In this document: positions 7,812 to 32,245 of the stretch, piece after piece | How the letters are laid out: every line of letters starts with the position of its first letter | Numbering within the stretch: position 1 is the first letter of the stretch | Origin: Lachnospiraceae bacterium | Lineage (GTDB): Bacteria; Bacillota; Clostridia; Lachnospirales; Lachnospiraceae | Reading direction: 5' to 3' | Assembly (NCBI GenBank): GCA_015057085.1 | Contig: SVFB01000042.1 | Coordinates: 1-34,672, forward strand | DNA: 34,672 nucleotides | The notes under the pieces: model-generated | What the model saw: the letters and a program-made list of their open reading frames with translations, nothing else | Database searches by the model: none | Told to the model about the DNA's origin: nothing | Position numbers and translations under genes: made by a program

Positions 7812-9512
7812 CTATGATTCTTTTTCAGAACGATAATAAGCTTCAAGTCGATCTTTACATCCCAAGAAAATCGGATACATATTCGGGTCAAACTGACTTC
7901 CCATGCTTTCCGTCATAATTTCCGTTACTTGAGGTACGCTCATAGCCTTTCTATAGCAGCGATCACTGATTAGCGCATCATATACATCTGCTACGGCCAT
8001 GATTCTTGCCTCGACCGGAATCATTTCGCCCACAAGTCCATCCGGATATCCGCGTCCGTCCCAGCGCTCGTGGTGATAGCGCGCTACATTGAAGGCCACA
8101 TTCACGAAATGTTCTTCCTCCACATCGTCCAAAATGATATGGACGAATTCGCCACTCTTTGCGGAGTGTGTCTTCATGATGGCATATTCTTCGTCTGTAA
8201 GTTTTCCAGGTTTATTTAAAATCGAATTCTCGATTGTAATCTTTCCTAAGTCGTGCATAGGCGCGGCACGAATAATATCTTGCGACATGACATCATCGAG
8301 CTGATACAGGCCTTGCTTTCGGATTTCTTCCACCAAAATGCGGATGATGTCGCTGGTTCTCTTTACATGACCACCGGTGTTGTTGTCTCGGTTATCAATC
8401 ATATTTGCCAGGCCGACAACAACTGTCTCTTGGATATTTTTGATGTTTTCCGTCTTCTGAGCGACTTCTTCGTTTAAGCTATCTGTGTAATCCTGCATAA
8501 CCTGAAGCACATGCTGCTCCTCGGTGATATCGCGTACATCAAGCAGATAGCCTAAAACTTTACTGCTTTTATTGATGGTAAATTCAGAAATTTCGCATTG
8601 GCAGTCCATTTCTCCAACCTTGAAATTTTTAAAGCCTACCTTGCGTTCCTGATATTCTTCGAGCAAGCTATATACGACCTTTGCAACATTTGTGCCTTCT
8701 TTTAATTTGGTATCCACAACCTGCATTTGCATTTCCGGAAAGAAATCAAAGATCTTGTTGTTGCAGCTTAAATACTGTCCTTTCAAATCGATGGCGAGAT
8801 AGCCTAAGCGTGTATCATCTTCCCGCTGCTTTGACACTATGCTGGTGATATCGTGGGCATGATCATGATCATAGCTTATCGCTATGATGGTATCGGCAAT
8901 CACATATAGAACCGGCAGCATAGAGAAATCCACATCCGCAAATGTTTCTACGACATACAAAAGCAGACCGATTGACAACAATACGGTATATACGATCAAT
9001 GTTTTTCGTGAAAAGGTACCTCTTCGAATCCATGCCATTATGATAATGGATACAATTGCCAAGAAGATAGCGGCCAAATATACCCAGTGAATTGATTTCA
9101 TTGGTCCACTTTCCATTTTGGTTGCAATTCCCAGACCGGTATCAATCAAGGTGATAGACTTGTAATAGGATTCATCATCAATGCCGTTCCAAACGATAAT
9201 CATATGGCCAAAGGCTAATGCATAAGCCAATACTTTTATCCATGCTTTGACATGAATTTTCATAAAATACAAAATTGCAAACAAGATAACGGTTAAAAGT
9301 ACCGTACTGTCCAGATAAATATATGCGAAGGTTACCTTTGCCGCTTCCGGAGTTGTCACTTTGGTTTTGAGCCAATAGCCTAACAAAATCAGCGGAACCA
9401 AAACTACGATGGTCCAATATCGTATATCAATCTGTTCGTAATTTTTACCGGCCATATATACCAAAACCAGTATCGAAATCATTAATAGTACTTCGTATAG
9501 TATACTAATCAT
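7812..9512 (-). CDS. Membrane HD-GYP domain protein, probable cyclic-di-GMP phosphodiesterase
   Basis: A 566-aa protein predicted to degrade c-di-GMP at the membrane. Residues 1-215 hold about seven hydrophobic segments like the 7TM input region of sensor kinases. Residues about 230-335 are PAS-like, followed by a short coiled coil. Residues about 365-560 are a complete HD-GYP domain: GGHVKR with His382, the HD pair His420-Asp421 in MHDLGKI, HHERWDGRGYP at 480-490 and DVYDAL at 509-514. Metal-binding residues look intact, so it should be active. AAGGAG precedes the ATG. It follows the response regulator by 24 bases and is the last gene of a kinase-regulator-phosphodiesterase operon, probably the output of that pathway. 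Confidence 0.9.
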   Translation of the reverse strand: MISILYEVLLMISILVLVYMAGKNYEQIDIRYWTIVVLVPLILLGYWLKTKVTTPEAAKVTFAYIYLDSTVLLTVILFAILYFMKIHVKAWIKVLAYALAFGHMIIVWNGIDDESYYKSITLIDTGLGIATKMESGPMKSIHWVYLAAIFLAIVSIIIMAWIRRGTFSRKTLIVYTVLLSIGLLLYVVETFADVDFSMLPVLYVIADTIIAISYDHDHAHDITSIVSKQREDDTRLGYLAIDLKGQYLSCNNKIFDFFPEMQMQVVDTKLKEGTNVAKVVYSLLEEYQERKVGFKNFKVGEMDCQCEISEFTINKSSKVLGYLLDVRDITEEQHVLQVMQDYTDSLNEEVAQKTENIKNIQETVVVGLANMIDNRDNNTGGHVKRTSDIIRILVEEIRKQGLYQLDDVMSQDIIRAAPMHDLGKITIENSILNKPGKLTDEEYAIMKTHSAKSGEFVHIILDDVEEEHFVNVAFNVARYHHERWDGRGYPDGLVGEMIPVEARIMAVADVYDALISDRCYRKAMSVPQVTEIMTESMGSQFDPNMYPIFLGCKDRLEAYYRSEKES

Positions 9513-9536
9513 AACAAGCGTATCTCCTTGTTCGTG

Positions 9537-9558
9537 TCAAGACTCGCTCGCGAGTTTG
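9537..9558. repeat. Fragment of the dispersed hairpin repeat inside a gene end
   Basis: These 22 bases match the right-end hairpin of the 161-bp repeat (reverse orientation) at 18 of 22 positions. They supply the last codons and the stop of the double-receiver gene. One base pair of the stem is changed on both sides (T-A to A-T) and another becomes G-U, so the stem is kept. Confidence 0.5.
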
Positions 9559-10307
9559 TTAAAGAACATCTGAATGCTATTCATAATAGACTCTTTTGGT
9601 TGTGTCTTGAGCAAATAGCCCTCAGGTTTCAGTGCCAACAATTCTCTTACTGTTTCCTGATCATTTCTTGAAGTCAAAAAGATGACCGGCGGTCTGACAT
9701 CCGTTGCATCGCTGTTTAACATTTCAAGAAATTGTGCTCCGGTGCATACAGGCATTTCGTAATCTAGCAAAATCAAATCCGGCTTTTTCGCCGAAATCAA
9801 CTTGATTGCAGCCATTGCGGAAGGACAAATCTGAACATTATAATCGTTTTCAAGCCATTCCAATACCGTGCGAAGAAATGTAGGAGAATCATCTACCACC
9901 ATAATGCTCTTCCGTATCTCGTTGTTCTTGATTTTTCCCAACAATTCGTCGATTGCATCTGCAGCTTCTTTTGCATTGATCGGGCGAATCAAAGTTTTTG
10001 CAATCAATGAAGGGGCTGTGATTGCGCTTACTTCATCGATTTCTTCCTGTTCTCCCATGATGACAAATTTCGCACCATGCTCAATGCAAAAGTCATATAA
10101 GAAAACGCGCTCCTTCGAATGCTCCATTAAAACATTTGCATCCACAACCACAAGCGGTGGCATCTCCTTCGGATGCTCCGATATGCTCTTTTTAATTTCC
10201 AATACATCCGTAAGGATTTCTTTTTCCTCAAGAAATCCTTTTAATGCACGGCTGACAAAGGATATGCTGCTTTCAATTAAAAATAATACCTGATTTTTTT
10301 CATCCAT
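9537..10307 (-). CDS. Double-receiver response regulator
   Basis: A 256-aa cytoplasmic protein with two CheY-like folds and no DNA-binding domain. Residues 1-125 look like a degenerate receiver: Asp56 in VVVDAN is present but the N-terminal acidic pair is missing. Residues about 132-250 are a full receiver with Asp139-Asp140, phospho-acceptor Asp182 in LLDYEMP, Thr212 and Lys234. It probably takes phosphate from the hybrid kinase encoded 20 bases upstream and acts by protein contact, possibly on the HD-GYP protein encoded 24 bases downstream. AAGGGAG precedes the ATG. The last codons (ASES, stop) overlap a fragment of the dispersed hairpin repeat. Confidence 0.85.
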   Translation of the reverse strand: MDEKNQVLFLIESSISFVSRALKGFLEEKEILTDVLEIKKSISEHPKEMPPLVVVDANVLMEHSKERVFLYDFCIEHGAKFVIMGEQEEIDEVSAITAPSLIAKTLIRPINAKEAADAIDELLGKIKNNEIRKSIMVVDDSPTFLRTVLEWLENDYNVQICPSAMAAIKLISAKKPDLILLDYEMPVCTGAQFLEMLNSDATDVRPPVIFLTSRNDQETVRELLALKPEGYLLKTQPKESIMNSIQMFFNKLASES

Positions 10308-10327
10308 ATCACGACTCCCTTGTAACC

Positions 10328-13297
10328 TTACTCTCCTTTAATTTGCCTACATATTTCTTCACATTTTGGGGCATCCAAATTTGCCACCACACCCCTAAGG
10401 GTCTCAAGCGACTCCTGCAACTTGGCATCATCTGTATATGTTCCAAGCTCTTCTATTATCGCATCCGCACTTTTCACATCATACGCATTCATACTGGTCA
10501 CAAGCTGATCCAATAGACTGATGAGTGCTTCCGGGCGAATATCTCCTTCTTTCTTATCGATTGTTTCGTTCATTCGGAAGAAATTCTTAAACTGCTCTGT
10601 CAAAGCAGACCATCCTTCCAGGAAATACTCCGTGGTTTCTACAATCTGCCTTACGCGAGCCTTACGTGCTGCCATCTCCAGCTGTGCTGCGGAGCCATAG
10701 ACTTGCAACGCGCCACATAATGCTGCAGAAGTTTTCATGGAATGTACTTTAATTCGATAAGAATTCAACGCATCCGCATCTTTTTCATCTTTCTGAAGCT
10801 TAAGCATATAATCTCGCAACTCTTGCTCATCCATCTTTCCAACTTGCGCAAACTGCTGCATCACGCGAAGAGCGCCATCCACACTTCCATTGTGATTCAA
10901 TGCATAGGTAACATCTACGCCTTCGATTTCCGGAAGCGCGCCCTCGTTGTCCATTTCCGGCTTCTTGGCTACCTTGCGCTTGCCTTCTTCAACCAGGTTC
11001 TCCGGCAGATATTGAAGAACGATTTCCTCTAAGCGATCTTCATCGATTGGTTTTGCAAGGAAATCTGTAAATCCTTCTTTGAGATACTCTTCTTTTGCTC
11101 CGTGCAATGCATTTGCTGTGAGGATGATTACAGGCGTCTCAAAGTTCTTTCCGCTTGAATCCTCCTTCAAGCGGCGGAATGTCTCGATTCCATCCATCTC
11201 AGGCATCATATGGTCTAAGAATATGATGTCATACTTTTTATCCTTGACCATCTCTAAGGCCTTAATTCCACTGATTGCTTTATCAATATGAATCTTGGTT
11301 TCTTTTAAGAGATTCTCGAATACCATCAGATTCATCTCATTATCATCTACCACCAGCAGATTTGCTTTTGGCGCGATAAATGAAACCTGATAATCTTCGT
11401 CATCCAAATCATCCATATGATCCCAATCCACTTTTCCGATTGGTGTCGGATCGATGATTTTTTGTTCCAGTTCGAAATAGAAATCGCTTCCCGAGCCATA
11501 TACGCTGGCTACCTTCAGCTGAGAATTCATCATTTTCAGCAATCCCTGTACCAGATTCATACCGATTCCGGTACCTTCCACGGTGCGATTTTTCTTCTCG
11601 TCAAAACGGGTGAATCGATCAAACAATTTCTTTTGATTCTCCGGTGTGATTCCGAGTCCGGTATCTTTTACAGAAATCAAAATATGTTCTCTTCCATCTC
11701 CCAATTCTTTTCCGAATACCCCAAGGCGAATTCCACCTTGGTCCGTATATTTCAGCGCATTGGTTAACAAATTGACGATAACCTGCTTCATCCGCACATC
11801 GTCTCCCAAAAGCTTGCTCGGAAGATTCTCGCTGACCTCGATGCGGAATGCCAGATTCTTTTTCTCGATGCGGTTTCTTACCACCGTCTCCGCTTCATAA
11901 ACCAGCTTCTTGATGGAATACTCACCTTCGATGATTTCCATCTTGCCTGCTTCCATTTTTGAGAAGTCTAAGATACTGTTAATCAATGCCAACAGCATAT
12001 TTCCTGCCACTTTAATATCACGTGCATAATGGCGGACAGTTTCATTGGTGCTCTCGCGCAAAATCATGGTATCCAATCCGAGAATTGTATTGATTGGCGT
12101 TCTGATTTCATGGGACATATTTGCAAGGAATGCGCTCTTAGAACTGCTCTCAAGTTGCGCCTGTTCCACCTGGCTCAAAATACGTTCCATTTCCATCTTT
12201 TCTTCTTTGATCTGCTGCGTTGTGAAAAGCACTTTCTTCAATCGACCGGTCTCACTTCGCTCCATTACGATAAACTGCAAACGACTCCATCCGAATCGTT
12301 CACTTTCGTACTCCATCGTAATACTGTTTCTCGACTCCAGGCGATCCTGTAACGTATCCAAATTCACGAATTCCAAAGTCAGTTCACGATATACTTCCTT
12401 TGGATCGAATGAGAATAAATTATCAAATTGTGCTTGTGCCGAAAGATGACGCGGACGCTCCTTATCATTTACGGATTCTACTCCCACCGGTGTAATGGTC
12501 TGCTCCACAATATCTACAACGTATACCAGGGAATATAATGCTGAAAGACATGATATACCTGATAATCTCAACTGGTTTTCGTATTGGGATTTGCGATAAA
12601 CATATCTCGCCACAATAATCATGGCCGCATAAAGAATCGTAATTCCGGTTAAGCCAAATGTCAGGTAAAATCCCAAGCCTGAATTATACTTTTGATAAAT
12701 ATGATAACGCAAAGTATAATTGGTAAAATCCGTTTCATCCCAGAAATAGAAAATACCACCGACGACCTTATTCTCTTTTGGTACTAATGTTGTTTCTTTG
12801 AATTGCTCTGATGGGTGATAAACGACATAATCTTCCGGATATAATGGAATCAACAAGTCAGAATCTTCCGTTATGTAATCTAATTCGATCCCATCCGGAT
12901 CATAATTTGCCAGATTAAGGGTTTGCACCTTTTCGATTCCTGCGTCGGCATATTGGTGAATTTCCACCTCACCGCTCCAGAATTGATTAATATAGCAGAA
13001 ATCAGCGATATGTATGGTTAATGTCCAATCTGTAATCGGTTGCTCTGAATTATTATTTAATACTACATCATAAATCCTTCCGATTAATCCGGATTCCTCC
13101 TTTTCCCAAGAGGATGTAGTATCCCCTCGAAAATGGATATCCGCATAAATCGGATCCTGCTCTGTGGCGCAATCCACTGTATGAATGCGCTGATTCACCG
13201 CGCTAACGTACAAAAAGTGAATAACCCCGCTTGCAATTGTAGCGAAAACCAATACAATCAGTACGATGGAAGCTCGTTTTACTTGCCTTTCATTCAT
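10328..13297 (-). CDS. Hybrid sensor histidine kinase with receiver and HPt domains
   Basis: A membrane hybrid kinase of about 989 aa, heading a three-gene operon. Numbering from the upstream GTG (13315), a membrane helix at about 14-40 is followed by an outer domain (about 45-210) and a second helix (about 214-240). Then come a linker, HisKA with phospho-acceptor His402 in ANMSHEIRTP, a HATPase domain with DTGLGI and GTGIGMNLV, a receiver with FLDHMMPEMDG, and a C-terminal HPt with HSMKTSAALCG. The outer domain pattern (DWTLTIHI, QFWSGEVEI) resembles family-2 cellulose-binding modules, which I consider possible, not shown. The ATG at 13297, with GGAAGG upstream, fits better than the GTG at 13315. 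Confidence 0.88.
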   Translation of the reverse strand: MNERQVKRASIVLIVLVFATIASGVIHFLYVSAVNQRIHTVDCATEQDPIYADIHFRGDTTSSWEKEESGLIGRIYDVVLNNNSEQPITDWTLTIHIADFCYINQFWSGEVEIHQYADAGIEKVQTLNLANYDPDGIELDYITEDSDLLIPLYPEDYVVYHPSEQFKETTLVPKENKVVGGIFYFWDETDFTNYTLRYHIYQKYNSGLGFYLTFGLTGITILYAAMIIVARYVYRKSQYENQLRLSGISCLSALYSLVYVVDIVEQTITPVGVESVNDKERPRHLSAQAQFDNLFSFDPKEVYRELTLEFVNLDTLQDRLESRNSITMEYESERFGWSRLQFIVMERSETGRLKKVLFTTQQIKEEKMEMERILSQVEQAQLESSSKSAFLANMSHEIRTPINTILGLDTMILRESTNETVRHYARDIKVAGNMLLALINSILDFSKMEAGKMEIIEGEYSIKKLVYEAETVVRNRIEKKNLAFRIEVSENLPSKLLGDDVRMKQVIVNLLTNALKYTDQGGIRLGVFGKELGDGREHILISVKDTGLGITPENQKKLFDRFTRFDEKKNRTVEGTGIGMNLVQGLLKMMNSQLKVASVYGSGSDFYFELEQKIIDPTPIGKVDWDHMDDLDDEDYQVSFIAPKANLLVVDDNEMNLMVFENLLKETKIHIDKAISGIKALEMVKDKKYDIIFLDHMMPEMDGIETFRRLKEDSSGKNFETPVIILTANALHGAKEEYLKEGFTDFLAKPIDEDRLEEIVLQYLPENLVEEGKRKVAKKPEMDNEGALPEIEGVDVTYALNHNGSVDGALRVMQQFAQVGKMDEQELRDYMLKLQKDEKDADALNSYRIKVHSMKTSAALCGALQVYGSAAQLEMAARKARVRQIVETTEYFLEGWSALTEQFKNFFRMNETIDKKEGDIRPEALISLLDQLVTSMNAYDVKSADAIIEELGTYTDDAKLQESLETLRGVVANLDAPKCEEICRQIKGE

Positions 13298-13347
13298 CTT
13301 ATTTACCTTCCCCACATTTGATAACTAAAAAAGCAATATCTAGGCTA

Positions 13348-22366: not shown

Positions 22367-22408
22367 ATTTTAACGCAGTCGGGGTACAAGCCCCGACTGC
22401 GTTAAAAT
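22367..22408. terminator. Strong hairpin between convergent genes
   Basis: An 18-bp perfect stem (22367-22384 with 22391-22408, loop tacaag) ends the ABC operon from the left. Its right arm covers the stop codon of the reductase gene from the right. Both sides are A/T-rich (TTTTAA...TTAAAA), so it can work in both directions, though T-tracts are short. Confidence 0.75.
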
Positions 22409-24093
22409 TTGCAGACAAATTCATCTGTTTTCTCATCTTCCTTTACATGTGTAGACATGTAGAAACGCATTCCCGCAGGATAAACCTTCACATGTTTAAA
22501 TCCATGCTGTTGCAATAATCTTGCGGTATTATATGCACGCACGCCGATGGCACAAAATACAACATACTGCTTGTTTGAATCTAACTCATCAAGATGTTCG
22601 CGCAATATGCTAAGCGAAATATGCTGCGCACCCGGAATGGAGAACATCTTCAGTTCCATGTCTTCGCGCACATCCAATGCAACCACATCCGGATTGGTTT
22701 CCAACTCATTCCAGGTTGCAAAGGATACATATCCACGCAACATGTTTTCAGCCACATATCCTGCCATGTTGACCGGATCTTTTGCAGATGAATATGGCGG
22801 TGCGTATGCAAGTTCCAGATTGGTCAAATCAGATACCGATGCGCCTAAGCGAATTGCAGTTCCAAGGGTATCGATGCGCTTGTCTGTGCCGTCTTTTCCT
22901 ACAATCTGAGCACCGTAAATCTTGCTTCCATCCATAGAGAATACCATCTTTAAAATCAATGGCTTTGCTCCAGGATAATATCCGGCGTGAGAATTCTGTG
23001 TGATAATCAGCGCACGATAGTCCTGATCCTTCACCATGCCTCTTTTCTGCAAAGCCTTTTCATTTGCACCGGTGGATGCCGCTGTCAAATCAAAAACCTT
23101 TGCCACAGAGGATCCCTGGGTTCCCTGATAGGTTGTCTCGAATCCGGCAATCTGATGCGCAACGATGCGTCCCTGTTTGTTTGCAGGTCCTGCAAGTGGA
23201 ACCATGGTCTTATCTCCAAAGATGAAGTCATCCACTTCCACAACATCACCTGCTGCATATATATTTTCATCTGCGGTTCTCATATGCGCATCTACCTTGA
23301 TGCCACCTCGCTCGTTTAATTCCAAACCTGCTGCCTTTGCAAGCTCGCTATTTGGGCGAACACCGATGGCGAGGATAACCAAATCTGCTGCCAATGCTTT
23401 GCCACTGTTTAAATTTACTACAATTTCGTCCTTTTGTTCTGCGAAGCTTGAAACGCCATCGCCCAATACCAGCTTCACGCCATTTGCGCGAATATTCTCG
23501 TTTAAAAGCAGCGCCATCTCGTAGTCAAGTGGAGCCATCACCTGGTCTGCAGCCTCCACAATTGCAACCTTAAGCCCTGCGTGATGCAGATTCTCTGCCA
23601 TTTCAAGGCCGATGAAACCGCCACCTACCACAATGGCACGCTTTACATTCTGCTCTGAAATCATTGCCTTGATTTCGTCAGTATCCGGAACGGTCCAAAG
23701 TGTCTTGACTCTTGCGGAATCAATGCCTTCAATGCGAGGCTTCACCGGAGAAGAACCGGTCGCAATTACAAGATGATCGTAAGATTCTTCGTATTCCTTT
23801 CCGGAGTTTTCGCGAACTTTCACGGTCTTTTGGGCGCGATTAATTTCGGTAACTTCACTATTATCACGCACATCGATATGAAAACGCTTCTCCATAATCG
23901 GCTTTTTCATCACGAGCAAATCTTCTCTGTTTTTGATAACGTCGCCCACATGATAAGGCAATCCGCAATTTGCGTAAGAAATATACGGACCTTTTTCCAA
24001 CAAGATGATTTCTTCGTCTTCCTTTAATCTGCGCAGACGAGCCGCACAACTTGCGCCTGCTGCAACACCACCAATGATGACTGTTTTACTCAT
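22402..24093 (-). CDS. CoA-disulfide reductase/persulfide reductase with rhodanese domain
   Basis: A 563-aa flavoprotein. Residues 1-450 are the FAD/NAD(P)H pyridine-nucleotide-disulfide oxidoreductase fold: VIIGGVAAGASCAARLRR at the N-terminus, single active-site Cys43 in YANCGLPYHVG, an NAD(P) motif VVGGGFIGLEMAEN and a FAD motif IYAAGDV. Residues about 465-545 are a rhodanese domain with Cys514 in VFCAIGVRAY. This fusion reduces CoA disulfides, persulfides or polysulfides, with rhodanese moving the sulfane sulfur; it acts in thiol and sulfur balance of anaerobes. AAAGGAG precedes the ATG and a clear promoter lies upstream. It is a single-gene unit. Confidence 0.9.
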   Translation of the reverse strand: MSKTVIIGGVAAGASCAARLRRLKEDEEIILLEKGPYISYANCGLPYHVGDVIKNREDLLVMKKPIMEKRFHIDVRDNSEVTEINRAQKTVKVRENSGKEYEESYDHLVIATGSSPVKPRIEGIDSARVKTLWTVPDTDEIKAMISEQNVKRAIVVGGGFIGLEMAENLHHAGLKVAIVEAADQVMAPLDYEMALLLNENIRANGVKLVLGDGVSSFAEQKDEIVVNLNSGKALAADLVILAIGVRPNSELAKAAGLELNERGGIKVDAHMRTADENIYAAGDVVEVDDFIFGDKTMVPLAGPANKQGRIVAHQIAGFETTYQGTQGSSVAKVFDLTAASTGANEKALQKRGMVKDQDYRALIITQNSHAGYYPGAKPLILKMVFSMDGSKIYGAQIVGKDGTDKRIDTLGTAIRLGASVSDLTNLELAYAPPYSSAKDPVNMAGYVAENMLRGYVSFATWNELETNPDVVALDVREDMELKMFSIPGAQHISLSILREHLDELDSNKQYVVFCAIGVRAYNTARLLQQHGFKHVKVYPAGMRFYMSTHVKEDEKTDEFVCKF

Positions 24094-24232: not shown

Positions 24233-24628
24233 TCATCGCATCATCTTGCGGAAGTAATCACATTCTTCATCATTGCAGATTCTTGCATCTTCTTCCTTAA
24301 TGCGTAGCATAAATACATGTCCTAATTCATGCTCTTCGTCTCCATAATAGTGAAACTCATGTGGCACCTTGTTTTTCACCAGGGCGGCGCCAAGCTTTGG
24401 AGCATGAAACGAGAAGTTCTTTGCATACTCCGGATTAGTGCACATTCCACTAAACAATCCCAAAAGATGTGCGCCGGCAGAATCACCCACTGCAAAAATG
24501 TTGTTCGTGTCAAATACCATACATGTATCTTCCAATGATGATGGGAATCTGTATTCCGGTGCCAGACGATATGTGAAATTCACCACCGCAAATCCTCTCT
24601 GAGCCAGATTCATACAATATTTCATCAT
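24233..24628 (-). pseudogene. Decayed alpha/beta-hydrolase (hormone-sensitive-lipase-type esterase)
   Basis: A 131-codon remnant of an esterase that is normally about 300 aa. Preserved blocks are the RGFAVVNFTYRLAPEYRFP strand-helix region, the nucleophile elbow GDSAGAH, and the C-terminal part with GDEEHELGHVF that would hold the catalytic histidine. The N-terminal HGGG oxyanion block is gone: an in-frame stop lies six codons before the first ATG and no ribosome site is seen. Two internal in-frame losses are apparent, a short one between VFD and TNN and a long one between NFSFH and APKL that removes the usual catalytic-Asp region. It is unlikely to be active. A terminator remains downstream. 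Confidence 0.75.
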
Positions 24629-24728: not shown

Positions 24729-25811
24729 ATGAAATTGAATTTTATCGTTCCAAAATCAGAGAAGGCTGATTTTTATCAATCAAAATTTGATTATTATCGA
24801 ACGCTGAGTTTCTACTCTGCGATTCTTACCGTTTTGATGCAGACAACATACTTTGTCACGGACTGCCAGATTTTTGGACGATTTGCCACCGAGACTTTGA
24901 TTCCGCGCTTTTCGGTGCTGGTGCCAATGCTGATCCTGATCATCATCAATCCGAAAATCAAAAGTTACCGGGTTGGTGCAGTCCTGTATTATCTTTTTCC
25001 GCACATCGCCATGTGGGCTACCATCTGGACCATCTGGTATCTGCCAAACAGAGACTTCGCGCGAGAAGGCTTCATTATCATGCACTTTGCATTCCTCGCA
25101 GTCGGTATGGGAATGCCGCTTGTTTACCACGTGATTGCCCACGGACTTTTATTCGCAAACATTATCGTATCGAATCTCTGGATTCACTACGAAACCTTCG
25201 ACATGATGATTACACTGGCCGCTCCGCTCTTTGTCGGTTGTGTACTGATGCTCCTCTTCAATCACAAAACCTATCTTGATCACTATCGTGTCGTCAAGAA
25301 AATCGAAAAGGATGCTCTCACCGACCAGCTAACCGGCGCATTCAACCGCAATATTTTGACCGAAATCTTTGATGAGAATTATCATACATTAAAGCCTCAG
25401 TTTTCAACGAGTAAACACGTTATCACTCTGATGATGGATTTGGACAAATTCAAAGAAGTCAATGACACCTACGGACACGAGGCCGGCGACCATATTCTTC
25501 AACTCCTAAGCGATACACTTAAGCAAAATGTAAAGGACACCGATTATGTCATCCGTTGGGGCGGCGAAGAATTTGTAGTATTTTTGATGGGATACACTTA
25601 TGAAGAGGGCGCTCAAATTGCAGAGCAAATTCGCTCACAAATTGCCACAACTGATACCGGCGTCTGTCCGATTACCGTATCCATTGGAATGAGCCTATAC
25701 AAGGGTGAAGACTACCATAAAACCATCCGAAAAGCCGACCGCGCACTATATTATGCAAAAGCGCATGGTCGAAACCAGGTCATTCGCGCAGAAGAATTAG
25801 AAAATGACTAA
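24729..25811 (+). CDS. Membrane diguanylate cyclase (GGDEF)
   Basis: A 360-aa protein predicted to make c-di-GMP. Residues about 28-178 hold five to six membrane helices without a recognisable sensor domain. Residues about 192-355 are a GGDEF domain with DALTDQLTGAFNR, MDLDKFKEVNDTYGH and the active signature GGEEF at 278-282. At the inhibitory I-site the usual RxxD is KDTD (269-272), so product inhibition is probably weak or lost. AAGAGG precedes the ATG. It is a single-gene unit with its own terminator, divergent from the decayed esterase. Confidence 0.9.
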   Translation: MKLNFIVPKSEKADFYQSKFDYYRTLSFYSAILTVLMQTTYFVTDCQIFGRFATETLIPRFSVLVPMLILIIINPKIKSYRVGAVLYYLFPHIAMWATIWTIWYLPNRDFAREGFIIMHFAFLAVGMGMPLVYHVIAHGLLFANIIVSNLWIHYETFDMMITLAAPLFVGCVLMLLFNHKTYLDHYRVVKKIEKDALTDQLTGAFNRNILTEIFDENYHTLKPQFSTSKHVITLMMDLDKFKEVNDTYGHEAGDHILQLLSDTLKQNVKDTDYVIRWGGEEFVVFLMGYTYEEGAQIAEQIRSQIATTDTGVCPITVSIGMSLYKGEDYHKTIRKADRALYYAKAHGRNQVIRAEELEND

Positions 25812-25850
25812 AAAAACTCTATCCCATCACATTGTGGGATAGAGTTTTTT
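25811..25850. terminator. Bidirectional intrinsic terminator
   Basis: A 16-bp perfect stem (25811-25826 with 25835-25850) with A-run on the left and T-run on the right separates the convergent cyclase and HTH genes. Its left end touches the stop codon of the cyclase. Confidence 0.9.
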
Positions 25851-25865
25851 TGCCAATTATTTCTT

Positions 25866-26495
25866 TTATCTGATGCACTCATCCGCTTCTCTTCTCAGCA
25901 CTTTCTTCTGCCAGCTTCGTTTGCCGCACTCCGGACATTTCATATATCTGGTTCTACCAACATGCATCGCAAGATTCACCTGCCAATACGTTGGAATATA
26001 GCGATGATGACAATGCTGGCATTCATAATATCCTGCCTTCTGCTCAATGCTCACCGCAATAAATGCCATCACAAAAACCATTAGCACAGCAAACACAATC
26101 AATAAAACTCTACACACAATTGGCATTTCAATATATGCCGCAAGCAATATAATCAACAACGCCGAAATGATCACCGGAATAGAAATCACATACTCCATTC
26201 TCAACATCATTTTGTTCTTTTCATCCAGCTCGTTTTTCATCGCCAACAGATTTTCTTCCGCCTTCTTATAATAGGTATCCTGCATAATCTTCTCGCCCGA
26301 CAGGAGTTCATTCACATTAATCTCCAACAATTCGCATAGCTCAAGCATCAATCCGGAATCCGGCATGGATTTCCCATTTTCCCACTTCGAAACAGCGCGA
26401 TTACTGATACCAAGTTTCTCCGCCAATACGGCCTGGGTCAACCCCTGCTCCTTTCTACATGATGCAATAAATTTTCCTATTTTCATTTGGTCCAT
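25866..26495 (-). CDS. XRE-family HTH protein with two membrane helices and a zinc ribbon
   Basis: A 209-aa protein with a Cro/CI-type helix-turn-helix at residues about 5-60 (QAVLAEKLGISNRAVSKWEN), a charged helix, two membrane helices at about 100-150, and a C-terminal four-cysteine zinc ribbon (YECQHCHHRY and KCPECGKRSW). A DNA-binding head tied to the membrane suggests a regulator answering to an envelope or metal signal; targets are unknown. The frame extends to 26528, but AAAGGAGGG stands just before the ATG at 26495. No operon partner is on this strand close by. Confidence 0.75.
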   Translation of the reverse strand: MDQMKIGKFIASCRKEQGLTQAVLAEKLGISNRAVSKWENGKSMPDSGLMLELCELLEINVNELLSGEKIMQDTYYKKAEENLLAMKNELDEKNKMMLRMEYVISIPVIISALLIILLAAYIEMPIVCRVLLIVFAVLMVFVMAFIAVSIEQKAGYYECQHCHHRYIPTYWQVNLAMHVGRTRYMKCPECGKRSWQKKVLRREADECIR

Positions 26496-26586
26496 ATCGG
26501 GCCCTCCTTTCATGTCTTCACTATACATTCAAAAGAAAAATCTGAACATGAACCAATAGTTGATATGCTGCGAAAGCCGGAAAATC

Positions 26587-28251
26587 CTACTCGTTTTGGC
26601 GTCTTCTATCCTGATGCATTTGATAATATTTTGCTTTGCACTGGTACATTTCTTCGTCTGCTCTGCTGAATACGCTTGCGAAGTCTATGTCTTTTTCAGG
26701 ATCATAGCTGGCTGCGCCTTTGGAGATTGCCAGCTCTTCTTCGTAGTTGCTGTTTTCGATATTAAAGAAGCGCAGCTGTTCGTCGAAGCGGGCGAATTGT
26801 CTCTGGATTTCATCATCGGATTGCTTTTCGGTGAGCACGACGAATTCGTCGCCGCCGATTCGATATACCCCATTTCCAAAGATTGCACGGATGCATTGGG
26901 CTGAATTTTTGATCAGCAGATCTCCGTATTCATGACCTTTGGTGTCGTTCATGCGTTTTAAGCCGTTTACGTCAAATACATATATGGTGAATGATGCCAT
27001 TTGTTCTTTAATTAGATGCTCGAGGCGGGCTTCTTCTGCCATATATGCAGCTTTGTTGCGGACACCTGTCATGGCATCCACGTATGCTTGTGCGTTGATA
27101 TAGTCGATGTATTTTTTTAATTCTACTGATATCTTTCGGATGCTGTCGGCCAGAGATCCGATTTCGTCGTGGGACTGATATGCGATTTCCTGTCCCAGCT
27201 CGCCCTTTGCGATGCGTGATGATATCACGGTCAAATCCCTGATTGGTGTGACTATTTTGTGGGTCAGGCGGACGGAAACTGCCACTACGAGCACGATGGC
27301 TACCACAAAAATCAATAGGATTTGGAAAACCATATGGTCACACATCCGATAGAGTGAGGCTTCCGGCGTTGATATGGCCAAATACATGCCATTATCCAAC
27401 TGAGTTACTATGATTCGATACTGCTTTGAGCCCACGCGATACTGATAATTTTGTCCGGTGTTGATGTATTCTACTTTAAAGAATTCACTCTGCGCCTGAA
27501 TTTCCTCCGGGAATTCCGATTTGTCCAAACCACCGGTGTAGTCTTGGTTATACAGCAGATTTCCTCCGGAACTAAACAAAGAGGCAGTGCTGTTTTCGTA
27601 ATATAACTGGTCTATGGATTGATGGACCAAAGTCATATCAATGTCCATTCCGTATACGCCGAGGAACACATTTCCGATATAAACCGGCTTTACATAAGAA
27701 ATGATGTATACGCCGATGTTTTCGTTCGTGTATGGTTCCATCCACATCTCAGATCCGTTTTCGATTGGCTGATAATACCATCCCACATGTGCGGTATCAT
27801 CTGTTTCATACTCGAGGATATTAGTTGGTGTCAAGCTTTGCACTTGTCCGCTACTATTTTCTGCCAGGAAAAATCCTGCAGTGCCTCCGTAAAGCTCCGG
27901 GTCAGGTCGATAATAAACCGACAGGGCACATTCGATGATATCCAAGGCTCCTGAAGACTGTCTTTCGAGGCTTTGATATAACTGTTCGCGATACTCACTG
28001 CTGCTTTGGAACAGTTCCACATCAACTTTGTTGCTCAAGTTATCGCTCATCGCATTCACTGCGCGCTCGACAGCCAGAAAATATGTATTCAATTCTCCTG
28101 TTTTTTCTTCGCTTAGCAATTGCATTGATTGTGCAGATTGCGTATCAATCGACAGCGTCAAATAATAGATGCCTACGGCTGACATCACGAGAAACAATCC
28201 TAAGATTGCACCCGCAAACGATATCACCAATCTTGTCCGAATTGATTTCAT
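26587..28251 (-). CDS. Cache-HAMP-GGDEF diguanylate cyclase
   Basis: A transmembrane receptor of 554 aa that should make c-di-GMP on binding an outside ligand. A membrane helix (about 10-33) leads to a double-Cache sensor domain (about 40-300, with GWYYQPIENG and ISYVKPVYIG typical of dCache), then a second helix (about 307-330), HAMP (about 331-385) and GGDEF (about 390-550). The signature GGDEF at about 466-470 is intact and FDVNGLKRMNDTKGHE is present; the I-site RxxD is absent. An ATG at 28251 follows GAGGGTG and is preferred to the upstream GTG at 28260. It is the third gene of a module with the Cache/degenerate-GGDEF protein and the kinase-DegV fusion; the 64-base gap before it is filled by 11-bp tandem repeats. 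Confidence 0.9.
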   Translation of the reverse strand: MKSIRTRLVISFAGAILGLFLVMSAVGIYYLTLSIDTQSAQSMQLLSEEKTGELNTYFLAVERAVNAMSDNLSNKVDVELFQSSSEYREQLYQSLERQSSGALDIIECALSVYYRPDPELYGGTAGFFLAENSSGQVQSLTPTNILEYETDDTAHVGWYYQPIENGSEMWMEPYTNENIGVYIISYVKPVYIGNVFLGVYGMDIDMTLVHQSIDQLYYENSTASLFSSGGNLLYNQDYTGGLDKSEFPEEIQAQSEFFKVEYINTGQNYQYRVGSKQYRIIVTQLDNGMYLAISTPEASLYRMCDHMVFQILLIFVVAIVLVVAVSVRLTHKIVTPIRDLTVISSRIAKGELGQEIAYQSHDEIGSLADSIRKISVELKKYIDYINAQAYVDAMTGVRNKAAYMAEEARLEHLIKEQMASFTIYVFDVNGLKRMNDTKGHEYGDLLIKNSAQCIRAIFGNGVYRIGGDEFVVLTEKQSDDEIQRQFARFDEQLRFFNIENSNYEEELAISKGAASYDPEKDIDFASVFSRADEEMYQCKAKYYQMHQDRRRQNE

Positions 28252-28266
28252 ACCAATCACCCTCGT

Positions 28267-28310
28267 GTCTCAATTTTGTCTCAATTATGTTTCAATTTTG
28301 TTCCACTTTT
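28267..28310. repeat. Four 11-bp tandem repeats before the cyclase gene
   Basis: gtctcaatttt, gtctcaattat, gtttcaatttt and gttccactttt stand end to end, each 11 bases, filling the gap between the stop of the degenerate GGDEF gene and the ribosome site of the next gene. Eleven bases is about one helical turn, so repeated protein-binding sites on one DNA face, or repeated RNA sites in the transcript, are possible. Confidence 0.7.
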
Positions 28311-28315
28311 CTTTA

Positions 28316-29695
28316 CTATTGTTTTTTCACGTTATTGCCGCCGAGTTCTTTCACGAGATACATATTTCGAACGGAGCGATAATAGTTCTTTTTTAAGGTG
28401 TCATCCAGCTTGATTTCGGTCAGGCCCACTGAGACGGTCACGTCTCCGATGGCTTCGACGCGTCTGCAGAATTCGCGACACAACTTCTCCGCTTCTTCCA
28501 CATCCGGCTCAATGAGCACCACGAAGGCGCTCTTATTCCAGCGGACGATTTGACCCTGCTGACCGAAGATTTCTCGCGCGACGCGCACTACGGAATGTAC
28601 AATGCGGCCGCTGCCTACCAGCTTCTCCACGTCTTCATAGTCGTCAATGCTAAAGTCTGCTATGCTTTGGTATTGCACGGTATTTAAGGTTCCGTTTTCA
28701 CCATAAATTCTGAAGATATATTCTCTCGTCGGAAGTCCGGTTTCTGAGTCCATGTCTCCTGCCAATTGGGTCTGATTTGCAGTTTGCGGTTTTATTTTTC
28801 GTCCTGCAAAAAGAAGCACGATGGCGCCAATGATCATCAAAACAGTCTGAACAAAGAAGAAGCGATAATTATAGCTGACATCTCCGTAACCGGTTTCGCT
28901 TCGCACAATCAAATACCAATCCACATCAGCCACATAGCGCACCACAGAAAATCCACCGATTCCATAAGGTTCATATACATAGCTATCGTAGCTTTTCTCC
29001 GGCAATTCCACACCGGATACATAGGAGGATCGAATAGAAGCCTCGTCGCTGCCCAGCTGCACCAGGCCATCCTCATCCACGAAATCTACTTTGACACCAT
29101 ATTCCGTTTCGTAGCCCTTGATGATTTCAATCATGTTGCTGGTTTCTACACCGACTCCGGCGACTCCTATCGCCTTTCCGCTTTCATCCTCGATTCGACC
29201 ATCCACAAATATGGTCATCCTATTCAGGTTTGCCTCATCCACAGACGAATCTACCTGATAAGCCTTTCCCGTCAACAAAAAGCTGGTGTACCAGGTATCA
29301 ACGGAATCGGAAACCGGATTGATGGTCTTATTTAATCCCATATATGAATAATAATTTTTCGTCGCATCAGAGATGATATAGGCCGTCGCGAAATTGTATT
29401 TCTTTTGCACACGGGACAGATAATCACGAATGCTGCGCACCAATTCCGTTTCGTTGGTAGACTTTTCCTGCTGAAGCAAATCGCGCACGCAGTCATCCTG
29501 ACAAACCATTTGCGAAACGGTGACAGCCTCGGAAATTTCTCCAAGCACGGTTTTTTCAATGCTCTCCGCCATCAAAATTCTCTTATTCGATTCCGCGTCC
29601 ATATCAATGCCCATATATACGTATGCAATGGTGGACACTAAAAATGCGCCCAGATATAAAAGCACTGCCAACCATTTGAATGGATTCTTTTTCAT
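28316..29695 (-). CDS. Cache receptor with degenerate GGDEF domain
   Basis: A 459-aa membrane protein: helix at about 8-30, a Cache-type outer domain (about 35-270, with TWYTSFLLTGKAY and VGVETSNMIEIIKGYE), helix at about 283-300, and a C-terminal GGDEF-like fold (about 318-455). The domain has lost catalysis: the GGDEF signature reads NKSAF in VRWNKSAFVVLIE, and the NxxxGH part is unrecognisable. The later VSVGLTEI strand keeps the fold. It likely works as a ligand-controlled partner or c-di-GMP/GTP-binding regulator for the active cyclase encoded next. It starts 18 bases after the kinase-DegV gene behind GGAGAG. Confidence 0.85.
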   Translation of the reverse strand: MKKNPFKWLAVLLYLGAFLVSTIAYVYMGIDMDAESNKRILMAESIEKTVLGEISEAVTVSQMVCQDDCVRDLLQQEKSTNETELVRSIRDYLSRVQKKYNFATAYIISDATKNYYSYMGLNKTINPVSDSVDTWYTSFLLTGKAYQVDSSVDEANLNRMTIFVDGRIEDESGKAIGVAGVGVETSNMIEIIKGYETEYGVKVDFVDEDGLVQLGSDEASIRSSYVSGVELPEKSYDSYVYEPYGIGGFSVVRYVADVDWYLIVRSETGYGDVSYNYRFFFVQTVLMIIGAIVLLFAGRKIKPQTANQTQLAGDMDSETGLPTREYIFRIYGENGTLNTVQYQSIADFSIDDYEDVEKLVGSGRIVHSVVRVAREIFGQQGQIVRWNKSAFVVLIEPDVEEAEKLCREFCRRVEAIGDVTVSVGLTEIKLDDTLKKNYYRSVRNMYLVKELGGNNVKKQ

Positions 29696-29713
29696 AACAT
29701 CTCTCCGTTTATC

Positions 29714-32245
29714 CTAAAATTGCTTATCCATATAGATAATGCCAAAGGTTCCAACACCGCAGTTAATTGATATCGCAGCAGATGCACGGCGAAGGTAGAC
29801 ATTTCGGAAATGACCCTCCGTTGTCAATCGCTGCTCCAAGCCCATCAATTCTTGCTGCTTGATTCCAACGGAACCCACGAATGCGCGGGTGTGATCCACC
29901 TTCGCATGTCGTTTCAAAATCTTATTCACATAGCGATCCTTTGCGCGCTCCATGCTGCCAAAGTAGAAGCCTCCGATGGACATGGCATCGCGACGCATCA
30001 CGATGACCGGATGAATCATCAAACCACGAGCCAGGATACTAAGGCCTTTGCTCACACGACCCACGTAAGCCAGATGATCCAGATTGTCGATGAGGAAAGT
30101 GGTTCTCACCTTCGGCCGTATTTTTTCAAGGAATGCGAGAATTTCCTCCGCAGATTTCCCTTCCTTTGCCTTTTCATCTGCCTGCAGCGCCATCATTGCA
30201 ACGCCGCCCGAAACCTGTCCGGAATTGAAGACATATACATTCTCCATCTGCTCCGCCACCTTCATCGCTCGCTCATAGGAAACGCTGACGCGCTTTGCGG
30301 TGCTGACATAGATCAGCTGTTTCGCATAGCGAAGCTGGAATGAAAAGAAAGCTCTAAAATCATCCTCGGATGGCGCCATGGAATGCATACTGCGATTCTC
30401 CCTGAAATGGCTAAGTGCACACTCCTGAGACATTTCTATTCCGTCTAAGAAGTTTGCATGCTCCGTAAAGATTCTAAAAGGAATCACCGGAATTCCTTGC
30501 TTCTGCGATATCTCCATGGATAAATCCGACATACTATCCGTCATAATCATCACATTGCGGCCGCCATACATACGAATCTCACGATCCTTAAGAGATTCCG
30601 CATTAATATTTTGCGAACTATCTTTTTGCGCTTTTGCATTATTTTTTCGGCGATCTGCTGTTTTTGCACATTCCTGAAGCGCCAGCAGAAGTTCTGCCGA
30701 ACCAAAAGGAATCGGAATCTGATATGCTTTGCTATTCTTTAGTACAACCAGATACACATCCAGCTTTTCATAATAATCAGGATTCTCCATATAATGATAA
30801 TCCTTCACAACCATGCAAACGCGGCGATAGACGCCCAAAAGTTCTCTTAGTTCGCCTTCGTTTTGAATCGCATAAGCCGGAATGCTGAGCTTCGTAGTCA
30901 TATTGTAAAACAAATCCTCATAGAAACGATTGAGACCAGTATTCTCAAATTTATGATTTTCATAAACCAAACAAATATTGGTATGTCGGTCAAAGGACAT
31001 ACATGGCACCGCATCCACAACGCGCTGCGGAATGCTGACAATAACCGATGTGCCTCTTCCCCATTTGCTCTCGATACGATAAAAACCGCCCATACACTTT
31101 AAGAAACCGGTGGTTAAAAACAGTCCCAGTCCAAGACCGCCCGGTCGATATTCCAAGGTCTTGCGATTGTCCAGATCCTCCATCAATCGCTCCAAGTCCA
31201 TCTGAACAATGCCGATTCCGGTATCATTGACCTCGATGACCAGATTACATTGCTCGCCGTAATTTTGCGTATAGATTTTCACTTGGATTCCACCCTTTTT
31301 GGTATAGCGAATTCCGTTGGAAATCAGATGACGCATAATCTTAATGATCTTATTTCGATCCCCCATCATTGCCTTCGGAACCATCGGATCCAAGTCGAAA
31401 ATCATGTTCGGAATCATTTCGTCCTTGTGTGTTTGACGCTCCATCCTCAATTCCGAAAGTAAATCCAAAATTTCATAGACTTCCGGCTCGTTTTTGGTCC
31501 TGCCGGAAACCATATCCGAATAATCTCGTAAATCAATCAGCTCATTCGTCAGCACCCGACCGTAGGTAAAGATGCTCTTCAAGGAATCCGGAATCATCTC
31601 CTCTGATATATCATTGTAAATCTCATTGCGAAATACAATCAGTTCCCCTGTCATTTTATTTGAAATTGCCCCAAGTTCTCGCGAAACCACATTCACCTGC
31701 TCCTTCGCAAGCCACTCCTGCTCGAGCATTTCCTTTTCCAAATTGCGATGACGCTTAAACTCCCGGTTGCGCTCCCTGACATAGAAGTGACTTACGCCGC
31801 CGGCCATCAATACCAGCGCACATTCTAAGATTAGCTGTGGCCAATCCAATTGGTAAGCACTCTCCCATCTCCAATCCACCCGGGCAAAATTAAATATCAT
31901 CGTGAGAAAATAGGTTAATACCGCCATCCAAATTAATCCGATAATCCTTGTGGCAAAATAGATCAAAATGATGACCACAATGGCCAATGACAGCACCGCC
32001 AGCCTGCTTTGGTGAATGCCGTAATAGAAATATGCAAGCATCATAAAAACGGCATACAACCACATACGTTGTACACCGCTATATTTTTGAATAATCGTTA
32101 AGCACCACGAATAAACCAATGCGCATACCACTAACGGTAGAACGAATCGGTCCCACTTATGCACGATTACTTCCGCACACAAAATCAACTCAGTAATTGA
32201 AAACGCGATTAACATCAAAAGATGTGCGCCATCTCTGTTTTCCAT
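29714..32245 (-). CDS. Membrane pseudo-histidine-kinase fused to a DegV domain
   Basis: An 843-aa fusion. Residues about 8-155 hold five to six membrane helices and no outer domain. Residues about 160-245 align by eye with HisKA, but the H-box reads KMTGELIVF, with Gly200 where the phospho-acceptor His should be. Residues about 260-408 are a HATPase domain with N-box Asn310, DTGIGI (341-346) and GGLGLGLFLT (369-378) intact. Residues about 420-525 look like a receiver without its acidic residues. Residues about 564-842 are a DegV-family domain (VMIMTDSMSDLS, FLDGIEM, LAYVGRVSKG, GVGTFGIIYM), a family that binds fatty acids, as FakB. It heads the three-gene module. AAGGCG is a weak ribosome site before the ATG. 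Activity and ligand are inference. Confidence 0.82.
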   Translation of the reverse strand: MENRDGAHLLMLIAFSITELILCAEVIVHKWDRFVLPLVVCALVYSWCLTIIQKYSGVQRMWLYAVFMMLAYFYYGIHQSRLAVLSLAIVVIILIYFATRIIGLIWMAVLTYFLTMIFNFARVDWRWESAYQLDWPQLILECALVLMAGGVSHFYVRERNREFKRHRNLEKEMLEQEWLAKEQVNVVSRELGAISNKMTGELIVFRNEIYNDISEEMIPDSLKSIFTYGRVLTNELIDLRDYSDMVSGRTKNEPEVYEILDLLSELRMERQTHKDEMIPNMIFDLDPMVPKAMMGDRNKIIKIMRHLISNGIRYTKKGGIQVKIYTQNYGEQCNLVIEVNDTGIGIVQMDLERLMEDLDNRKTLEYRPGGLGLGLFLTTGFLKCMGGFYRIESKWGRGTSVIVSIPQRVVDAVPCMSFDRHTNICLVYENHKFENTGLNRFYEDLFYNMTTKLSIPAYAIQNEGELRELLGVYRRVCMVVKDYHYMENPDYYEKLDVYLVVLKNSKAYQIPIPFGSAELLLALQECAKTADRRKNNAKAQKDSSQNINAESLKDREIRMYGGRNVMIMTDSMSDLSMEISQKQGIPVIPFRIFTEHANFLDGIEMSQECALSHFRENRSMHSMAPSEDDFRAFFSFQLRYAKQLIYVSTAKRVSVSYERAMKVAEQMENVYVFNSGQVSGGVAMMALQADEKAKEGKSAEEILAFLEKIRPKVRTTFLIDNLDHLAYVGRVSKGLSILARGLMIHPVIVMRRDAMSIGGFYFGSMERAKDRYVNKILKRHAKVDHTRAFVGSVGIKQQELMGLEQRLTTEGHFRNVYLRRASAAISINCGVGTFGIIYMDKQF

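Follow-up and report, generated by a model that had tools for sequence, protein, structure and literature searches.

FakB/DegV fatty-acid-binding proteins, nucleobase-binding dCache receptors and pseudo-histidine kinases are the closest described relatives of three genes found in a Lachnospiraceae bacterium (assembly GCA_015057085.1, contig SVFB01000042.1). These genes occupy positions 26,587 to 32,245 of what we term the window, that is, the whole 34,672-nucleotide stretch analysed (positions 1 to 34,672 of the contig). Published accounts describe a fatty-acid carboxylate network in FakB composed of Thr62, Ser95, Ser171 and His270, with Arg173 and Arg205 completely conserved (PMC8892158), and assign Arg205 to FakA docking, the R173A variant of FakB1 retaining fatty acid exchange and being inactive in the kinase assay (PMC9136124). 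For the purine receptor McpH they give the motif Y121, R129, W140, F167 and D169, and among the receptors tested both a K in the second motif position and a D in the fifth are represented (PMC11245519). Eight uracil contacts are named for the Roseburia intestinalis A4 receptor (PDB 9HVJ), and a diguanylate cyclase with a dCache_1UR sensor is reported in the same work (PMC12415202).

We have found that the window carries a conserved unit of three genes, in which a pseudo-histidine kinase fused to DegV stands beside two dCache proteins, one predicted to bind a purine and the other uracil. We consider it moderately probable that this conserved three-gene operon sets cyclic di-guanosine monophosphate (c-di-GMP) from extracellular nucleobases. 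The unit consists of the following open reading frames (ORFs; lengths in amino acids, aa):

29714..32245, minus strand: gene 1, 843-aa membrane pseudo-histidine kinase fused to DegV (ORF, Pfam, alignment)
28316..29695, minus strand: gene 2, 459-aa dCache protein with a degenerate GGDEF (ORF, NCBIfam, alignment)
26587..28260, minus strand: gene 3, Cache-HAMP-GGDEF protein, ATG start at 28251 (ORF, Pfam, alignment)

Read from its GTG codon gene 3 is 557 aa long, and from the ATG, the start conserved among orthologues, 554 aa. The gap between genes 1 and 2 is 18 bases and that between genes 2 and 3 is 64 (from the ATG) or 55 (from the GTG). No terminator-like site lies within either gap. Across the window such sites exceed the level in shuffled sequence (16 versus 7.8), with one of 13 pairs inside gene 1 (32048-32080), and promoter-like sites are at the shuffled level (19 versus 20.1). 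Scans of the window with Rfam and for tRNA gave no match.

The scan of named bacterial genomes, made with an alignment of three orthologues and two peptide patterns, returned seven relatives, four of them full-length. Besides the window, the module is carried by Eubacterium oxidoreducens DSM 3217, Lachnospiraceae RUI286 and the Butyrivibrio metagenome-assembled genomes RUI043 and RUI559 (loci L168 and L169, arranged like L109 and L108, were not counted again). These five orthologues are a lower bound, because only two peptide patterns were used. Genes 1, 2 and 3 are consecutive and in the same order in all five genomes, gene 3 of RUI043 being truncated at 546 aa by the contig end. The gaps in the four other genomes are 12 and 4 bases, and identity to the window is 50-52% for gene 1, 48-52% for gene 2 and 57-61% for gene 3. 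When the 49 ORFs that flank the modules within 7 kb were compared, 21 matches between loci emerged. Of these, 20 are at 21-45% identity, involve few ORFs and lie at differing positions; we guess that these are transporter paralogues. Only one match is close, and the shared unit is therefore the three genes. In the window the gap before gene 3 (28252-28315) contains AAAATTGAGACA-like near-repeats, each about 12 bases long, and measures 64 bases compared with 4 in the four orthologues.

The original prediction had been made from the DNA letters, and its account of the unit agrees with these data. The ORF list bears out three close minus-strand genes with gaps of 18 and 64 bases, and co-occurrence in relatives, named beforehand as the point on which the idea could fall, was found in five genomes. 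The membrane HisKA-HATPase-like pseudo-kinase with DegV is recovered as HATPase_c and DegV matches with Arg in place of the phosphoacceptor His. The broken GGDEF attributed to gene 2 has lost its motif in 5/5 orthologues and still gives a weak SiaD match as well as PDB profile matches to GGDEF proteins, and the intact GGDEF attributed to gene 3 has GGDEF, metal Asp and GHxxGD in 5/5. The two Cache receptors for outside ligands are likewise upheld, with different ligands now predicted for them.

The evidence for gene 3 concerns the following features:

27346..28140, minus strand: gene 3 dCache, contacts R115, F128, T143, W158, Y174, N176, N178 and D203, numbered from the ATG (PDB profile, alignment to 9hvj)
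27127..27267, minus strand: gene 3 HAMP (Pfam)
26629..27087, minus strand: gene 3 GGDEF, intact RIGGDEF, with GGDEF at 26842-26856 (Pfam, alignment)

Pfam finds MCP-like_PDC_1, HAMP and GGDEF (9e-23) in gene 3. The closest solved structure to its Cache domain is the Roseburia intestinalis uracil receptor 9hvj (1.2e-49 by profile search), and the window protein alone is homologous to 9hvj over residues 38-302 (2e-36). The uracil contact positions, hand-placed through the 9hvj alignment, read RFTWYNND in 5/5 orthologues. Twelve of 19 gene 3-type loci were examined, with RFTWYNND exact in ten and one or two residues changed in the other two; gene 2 is a neighbor in four. Uracil is our predicted ligand for gene 3. 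An acetate (short-chain fatty acid) pocket was also considered and rejected for the window protein, in which Y225, H238 and Y273 of that pocket are Thr, Asn and Tyr (K280 was not placed); Tyr225 is kept in one and His238 in three of the five orthologues. The cyclase motifs R[IV]GGDEF, FDxNGLK and GHEYGD are present in 5/5 (RIGGDEF and FDVNGLK in the window). Inspection of the gene 3 GGDEF by eye revealed no RxxD inhibitory site at the position that, from PleD, we take to be the relevant one. At five further loci (L230-L234) a uracil-type Cache-HAMP-GGDEF gene stands beside receiver genes instead of gene 2, with histidine kinase pieces in three.

Gene 2 has the following features:

29021..29572, minus strand: gene 2 dCache (Pfam stretch 42-225), purine motif Y115, K123, W135, F163 and D165 (Pfam, PDB profile, alignment)
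28325..28759, minus strand: gene 2 degenerate GGDEF, residues ~313-457 (NCBIfam, alignment, PDB profile)
28523..28537, minus strand: N387-K-S-A-F391 at the GGDEF site of active cyclases (alignment)

The only Pfam match is dCache_1, below cut-off (1e-8). The closest solved relative by sequence is the McpH purine receptor 8bmv (7.8e-15), which is also the top structural match of a gene 2 model of moderate quality (pLDDT, the predicted local distance difference test, 73.8). The McpH motif positions, hand-placed through sequence alignment, are YKWFD in 5/5 orthologues, a test of the residues and not of their spacing, and a purine is our predicted ligand. The C-terminal region matches NCBIfam SiaD weakly over 310-455 (1.8e-4) and, over ~314-454, gives PDB profile matches to GGDEF proteins. 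In 5/5 orthologues GGDEF has become N-x-x-[AS]-F (NKSAF in the window) and the metal-Asp motif FDxD has become FSIDD. A gene 2 relative at locus L193 (genome G063) keeps an intact RWGGDEF, so that across six loci the active site is lost where gene 1 is present (five) and kept where gene 1 is absent (one). In two genomes a Cache-GGDEF gene overlaps a gene of 156-159 aa that encodes a stand-alone GGDEF of the gene 2 type (L194 8399-10740, L195 1622-3936), and at L196 and L197 a gene 2-type Cache is fused to HisKA-HATPase-receiver-Hpt.

Gene 1 is the most elaborate of the three proteins:

31736..32245, minus strand: gene 1 membrane part, residues 4-170, five to six predicted helices (AlphaFold2 model m6beefba5057e)
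31679..31681, minus strand: Arg189 at the HisKA phosphoacceptor His position (alignment)
31025..31363, minus strand: HATPase_c domain, N310, D341-G343-G345 and G370/G372/G374 kept (Pfam, alignment)
30626..31000, minus strand: receiver-position segment, residues ~416-540, between HATPase and DegV (alignment, model)
29729..30553, minus strand: DegV domain, residues 565-839 (Pfam, alignment)

Pfam identifies HATPase_c at 295-407 (7e-16) and DegV at 565-839 (3.7e-38), and HisKA is not matched even with E up to 1. In NCBIfam and PDB searches the kinase half resembles histidine kinases. AlphaFold2 modelled the 843-aa protein with low confidence (mean pLDDT 67.8, predicted template modeling score 0.40). 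The model has helices at 4-28, 35-52, 57-77, 82-99, 102-122 and 135-210, and its kinase part has structural matches to HK853 and RetS. The phosphoacceptor position is R, K, R, K and K in the five orthologues, and the ATP-site residues N310, D341, G343, G345, G370, G372 and G374 are invariant in nine aligned kinase rows. The receiver Asp motif is found in the receiver-position segment of none of the five orthologues, and gene 1 has no Hpt match. Comparison of residues 416-540 with a home-made receiver profile (hhalign) gave a probability of 1.1 and P 0.049, with four other templates at P 0.15-0.22, and the model is weak there (block means ~50-72 over 421-510 and under 50 over 505-559).

The DegV domain places gene 1 within a wider group of signaling proteins. 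The bacterium's own genome has two such loci, one (L009, G000:C47, 7571-14322) with genes for a methyl-accepting chemotaxis protein (MCP), a membrane HisKA-HATPase-receiver-Hpt protein (907 aa) and a HisKA-HATPase-receiver-DegV protein (896 aa), and the other (L010, G000:C52, 7615-11891) with genes for a histidine kinase-receiver, a DegV-Hpt protein (434 aa) and a receiver-GGDEF protein. A genus profile search with the DegV of the phosphorelay fusions gave 39 matches (E 1e-60 or better) in 27/62 genomes, all in open frames of at least 419 aa, the next match (2e-56) being in a 304-aa frame; 37 of the 39 were read with flanks and two (G047, G030) as short loci only. The family sample has a match at 1e-58 in 77/397 genomes, and in 69 of these the frame is at least 400 aa long, a figure for which domain make-up was checked in the fetched loci only. 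The phylum sample yielded 8/398, comprising three members of the window's family with long frames and five others with frames of 288-300 aa. The usual arrangement in the fetched loci, as read with home-made profiles and confirmed for a subset by Pfam, is a pair of genes encoding a membrane HisKA-HATPase-segment-receiver-Hpt protein and then a HisKA-HATPase-receiver-DegV protein, often preceded by receiver-HD-GYP or receiver/CheA/MCP genes.

GGDEF or HD-GYP genes occur within four genes of 31/55 fused loci and of 3/20 stand-alone DegV loci (Fisher P 0.0016), and the fused count without window-type loci is 27/51 (P 0.0037). These P values are too small, because near-identical loci such as L131 and L132 are included and the rows are not independent. 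Of the 65 loci in this count, 64 showed a fused DegV and 55 had at least six neighbors; L163, where the fused-type DegV sits in a short frame, was dropped. Within four genes, the 51 non-window-type loci have HD-GYP in 19, CheA in 16, GGDEF in 11 and none of these in 11.

In a quick kinase tree (22/51 first-gene and 18/47 second-gene kinases) the gene 1 half groups with first-gene kinases (14 rows, nine first-gene and five window-type; support 96), and the second-gene kinases are separate from this group (support 100). In a quick DegV tree (22/33 stand-alone and 33/66 histidine kinase-receiver-DegV rows, including the duplicate L175) the gene 1 DegV falls on the fused side, apart from all 22 stand-alone domains used (support 100); a single origin of the fused DegV rests on a narrow sample, since the stand-alone set comes from the window's own genus. 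Among the pairs' second proteins the HisKA motif is retained in 64/67 and the receiver Asp motif in 59/67, and gene 1 has neither in 5/5. Judged from sequence, gene 1 is a phospho-dead offshoot of this Lachnospiraceae DegV-phosphorelay family, and it looks like a collapsed pair, with a sensor-kinase half of the kind seen in the first protein and a DegV of the kind seen in the second.

We compared this DegV domain with FakB, placing the FakB positions by motif and without structure alignment. Foldseek matches the modelled DegV part to FakB structures (3e-15). At Ser95, Arg173, Arg205 and His270 the window has A650, R730, F762 and N828, and at Thr62 it has S622, so that the hydroxyl is kept. Ser95 is retained in two of the five window-type domains, and Arg173 is R in three and K in two of these and R in 38/77 fused domains. 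Retention of Ser95, Arg205 and His270 among 77 fused DegV domains is none in 66 and one in 11, and among 33 stand-alone domains all three in 27 and two in six. Arg205, which serves docking to FakA and to the membrane, is found in no fused domain, the stand-alone domains having 28 Arg and 5 Leu, and the His270 position is Asn in 68/77 fused domains. These counts omit the duplicates L173, L174 and L175 (cut copies of window-type proteins) and two rows misgrouped as stand-alone, L005 (a cut DegV-Hpt copy) and L097 (a short frame with a fused-type DegV); one stand-alone row with a masked letter at His270 was scored as lost. The FakB1 Ser171 position is uninformative because it is Gly in nearly all stand-alone domains (33/35 rows, a tally made with the three duplicates still in the set).

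The original prediction had given gene 1 an acyl-lipid readout, and the Ala, Phe and Asn in the window at Ser95, Arg205 and His270 speak against this. FakB-type lipid sensing is rejected on these residues as the leading reading, and the fused relatives mostly share the losses. The broader proposal, that acyl-lipid state and two outside ligands are read into c-di-GMP, keeps its conserved unit and its two receptors and loses its lipid part. FakB-type activity has likely been lost from the gene 1 DegV, which may bind another hydrophobic ligand; the losses argue against FakB function and have no bearing on any other ligand.

From this standpoint, uracil would bind the gene 3 Cache domain and so control c-di-GMP synthesis by the gene 3 GGDEF. 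Cyclases of this class work as dimers, and for this reason gene 2 most likely pairs with gene 3; its dead GGDEF, set by a purine, would then tune or block its partner. Gene 1 retains its ATP motifs, and the phosphoacceptor His, the receiver Asp motif and Hpt are absent; its action is therefore most likely by protein contact, through a shape that may depend on ATP and ligand, with either the two receptors or the cell's own intact DegV-phosphorelay as its target. Its DegV would be a regulatory or ligand domain and no FakB fatty-acid carrier. The genome has two matches to PilZ c-di-GMP receptors. More speculatively, DegV could be a new signaling domain of Lachnospiraceae phosphorelays that has ceased to carry fatty acids, and gene 1 the product of a fusion between the two neighboring genes of such a phosphorelay, with all phospho-residues lost. 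It would then be an ATP-gated, DegV-bearing scaffold through which the dead purine-sensing cyclase and the live uracil-sensing one compare nucleobases, so that c-di-GMP reports the outside purine/pyrimidine balance; this extended scheme is tentative.

Several observations count against an operon that sets c-di-GMP from outside nucleobases. The module is rare, with the full set in 3/397 genomes of the family sample and the window form in no other of the 39 fused-type DegV matches from the 62 genus genomes (37 read with flanks, two as short loci). Gene 3-type cyclases occur in 18/397 family genomes (1e-90) and full-length gene 2 relatives (1e-100 or better) in 4/397, all four beside gene 3, and gene 3 is therefore mostly without gene 2. 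At L193 (G063:C2, 8489-15144) both receptors lie side by side without gene 1, the gene 2 GGDEF being intact, from which it follows that gene 1 is not required for the receptor pair everywhere; a 1195-aa HD-GYP protein comes next at this locus. GGDEF matches in the bacterium's genome number 30, of which 29 pass the cut-off, and many proteins may therefore set c-di-GMP.

Other explanations place the weight on a single gene. RetS acts on GacS as a dead hetero-dimer partner, and gene 1 might act in the same manner on the intact DegV-phosphorelay of C47, its adjacency to the cyclases then reflecting a common output and no contact. The sensor-kinase half of gene 1 is closest to the first kinase of such a pair, present in the same genome, and its modelled fold matches HK853 and RetS, but genes 1 to 3 adjoin in five genomes, and we regard this explanation as possible, though doubtful. 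Gene 2 could instead be a c-di-GMP- or GTP-binding receptor that feeds back on gene 3 and no purine-gated dimer partner. The C-terminal region of its dead GGDEF is strongly conserved, and the lack by eye of an RxxD site in gene 3 means that feedback could lie elsewhere; against this stands the replacement of both catalytic and metal positions (N-x-x-[AS]-F, and FSIDD for FDxD) in 5/5, and feedback of this kind seems rather unlikely. Acyl-lipid sensing by gene 1 through a FakB-like DegV, relayed to c-di-GMP, draws on the clear DegV fold, on the retention of Arg173 (R730), of a hydroxyl at Thr62 (S622) and of Ser95 in two of the five window-type domains, and on one Dak2 (FakA-type) match in the bacterium's genome. 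The changes of Ser95 to Ala, Arg205 to Phe and His270 to Asn, losses that 66 of 77 fused domains show in full and 27 of 33 stand-alone domains not at all, make it distinctly unlikely. Neutral decay, in which genes 1 and 2 are relics beside a working uracil cyclase, would account for the missing catalytic residues of both, but full-length open frames and the ATP-site and purine-site residues are kept in five genomes at ~50% identity, and we disfavor it as highly improbable. An operon that sets c-di-GMP from outside nucleobases thus remains our preferred reading.

The surroundings of the module in the window include further signaling genes. Fifty-eight bases behind gene 3 lies a helix-turn-helix (HTH) gene (25866-26528) with a membrane and zinc-ribbon-like tail, which ends at a strong terminator-like hairpin (25810-25851). 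It may be co-transcribed with the module, and no counterpart is present among the flanking ORFs of the four orthologue loci. Convergent with the operon, a membrane-like protein whose GGDEF match is strong (1e-38) is encoded at 24729-25811 (plus strand). An apparently shortened 131-aa alpha/beta hydrolase piece lies at 24233-24628 (minus strand). The gene at 22402-24093 (minus strand), which we take to be FAD-dependent reductase-like, is 67% identical over 219 aa to a protein in the E. oxidoreducens locus, encoded a few kb downstream of the module (L108 19339-20000). Further away, at 7812-13315 (minus strand), home-made profiles recognize consecutive genes for HisKA-HATPase-receiver-Hpt (995 aa), receiver (256 aa) and HD-GYP-like (566 aa) proteins.

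A vague idea of lipid plus two ligands has thereby given way to named predictions, a purine for gene 2 and uracil for gene 3. We found no description of DegV-histidine kinase or DegV-phosphorelay fusion proteins in the open-licence literature, and fused-type frames of at least 400 aa occur in 69/397 family genomes; if DegV is indeed a signaling domain in them, proteins known as suppliers of fatty acids to FakA have a second role. Two dead enzymes beside a live one in five genomes also offer a good natural case for pseudo-enzyme regulation. For dCache_1PU or dCache_1UR with a diguanylate cyclase, the same literature gave only the defining papers (PMC11245519, PMC12415202).

Comparison with the known systems sets the module apart at each gene. 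The gene 1 DegV has the fold of FakB/DegV proteins and keeps Arg173, but differs from them in its fusion to a kinase half and in its altered Ser95, Arg205 and His270 (PMC8892158, PMC9136124). Like the pseudo-histidine kinases and pseudo-receivers, gene 1 keeps the HATPase and has lost the phosphoacceptor, whereas its C-terminal DegV domain and its company of c-di-GMP receptors are different (PMC12632262). Relative to the DegV-phosphorelay pairs, it joins in one chain a sensor-kinase half like that of their first protein and a DegV like that of their second, and it lacks in 5/5 the phospho-residues that the second proteins keep. Gene 2 has Y, K, W, F and D at the motif positions of the dCache_1PU receptors (McpH, PDB 8BMV), but its output is a GGDEF without its motif (PMC11245519). 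Gene 3 has all eight uracil contacts of the dCache_1UR receptors (9HVJ), but the window protein does not retain the short-chain fatty acid pocket, and its partners are a dead cyclase and a DegV pseudo-kinase (PMC12415202).

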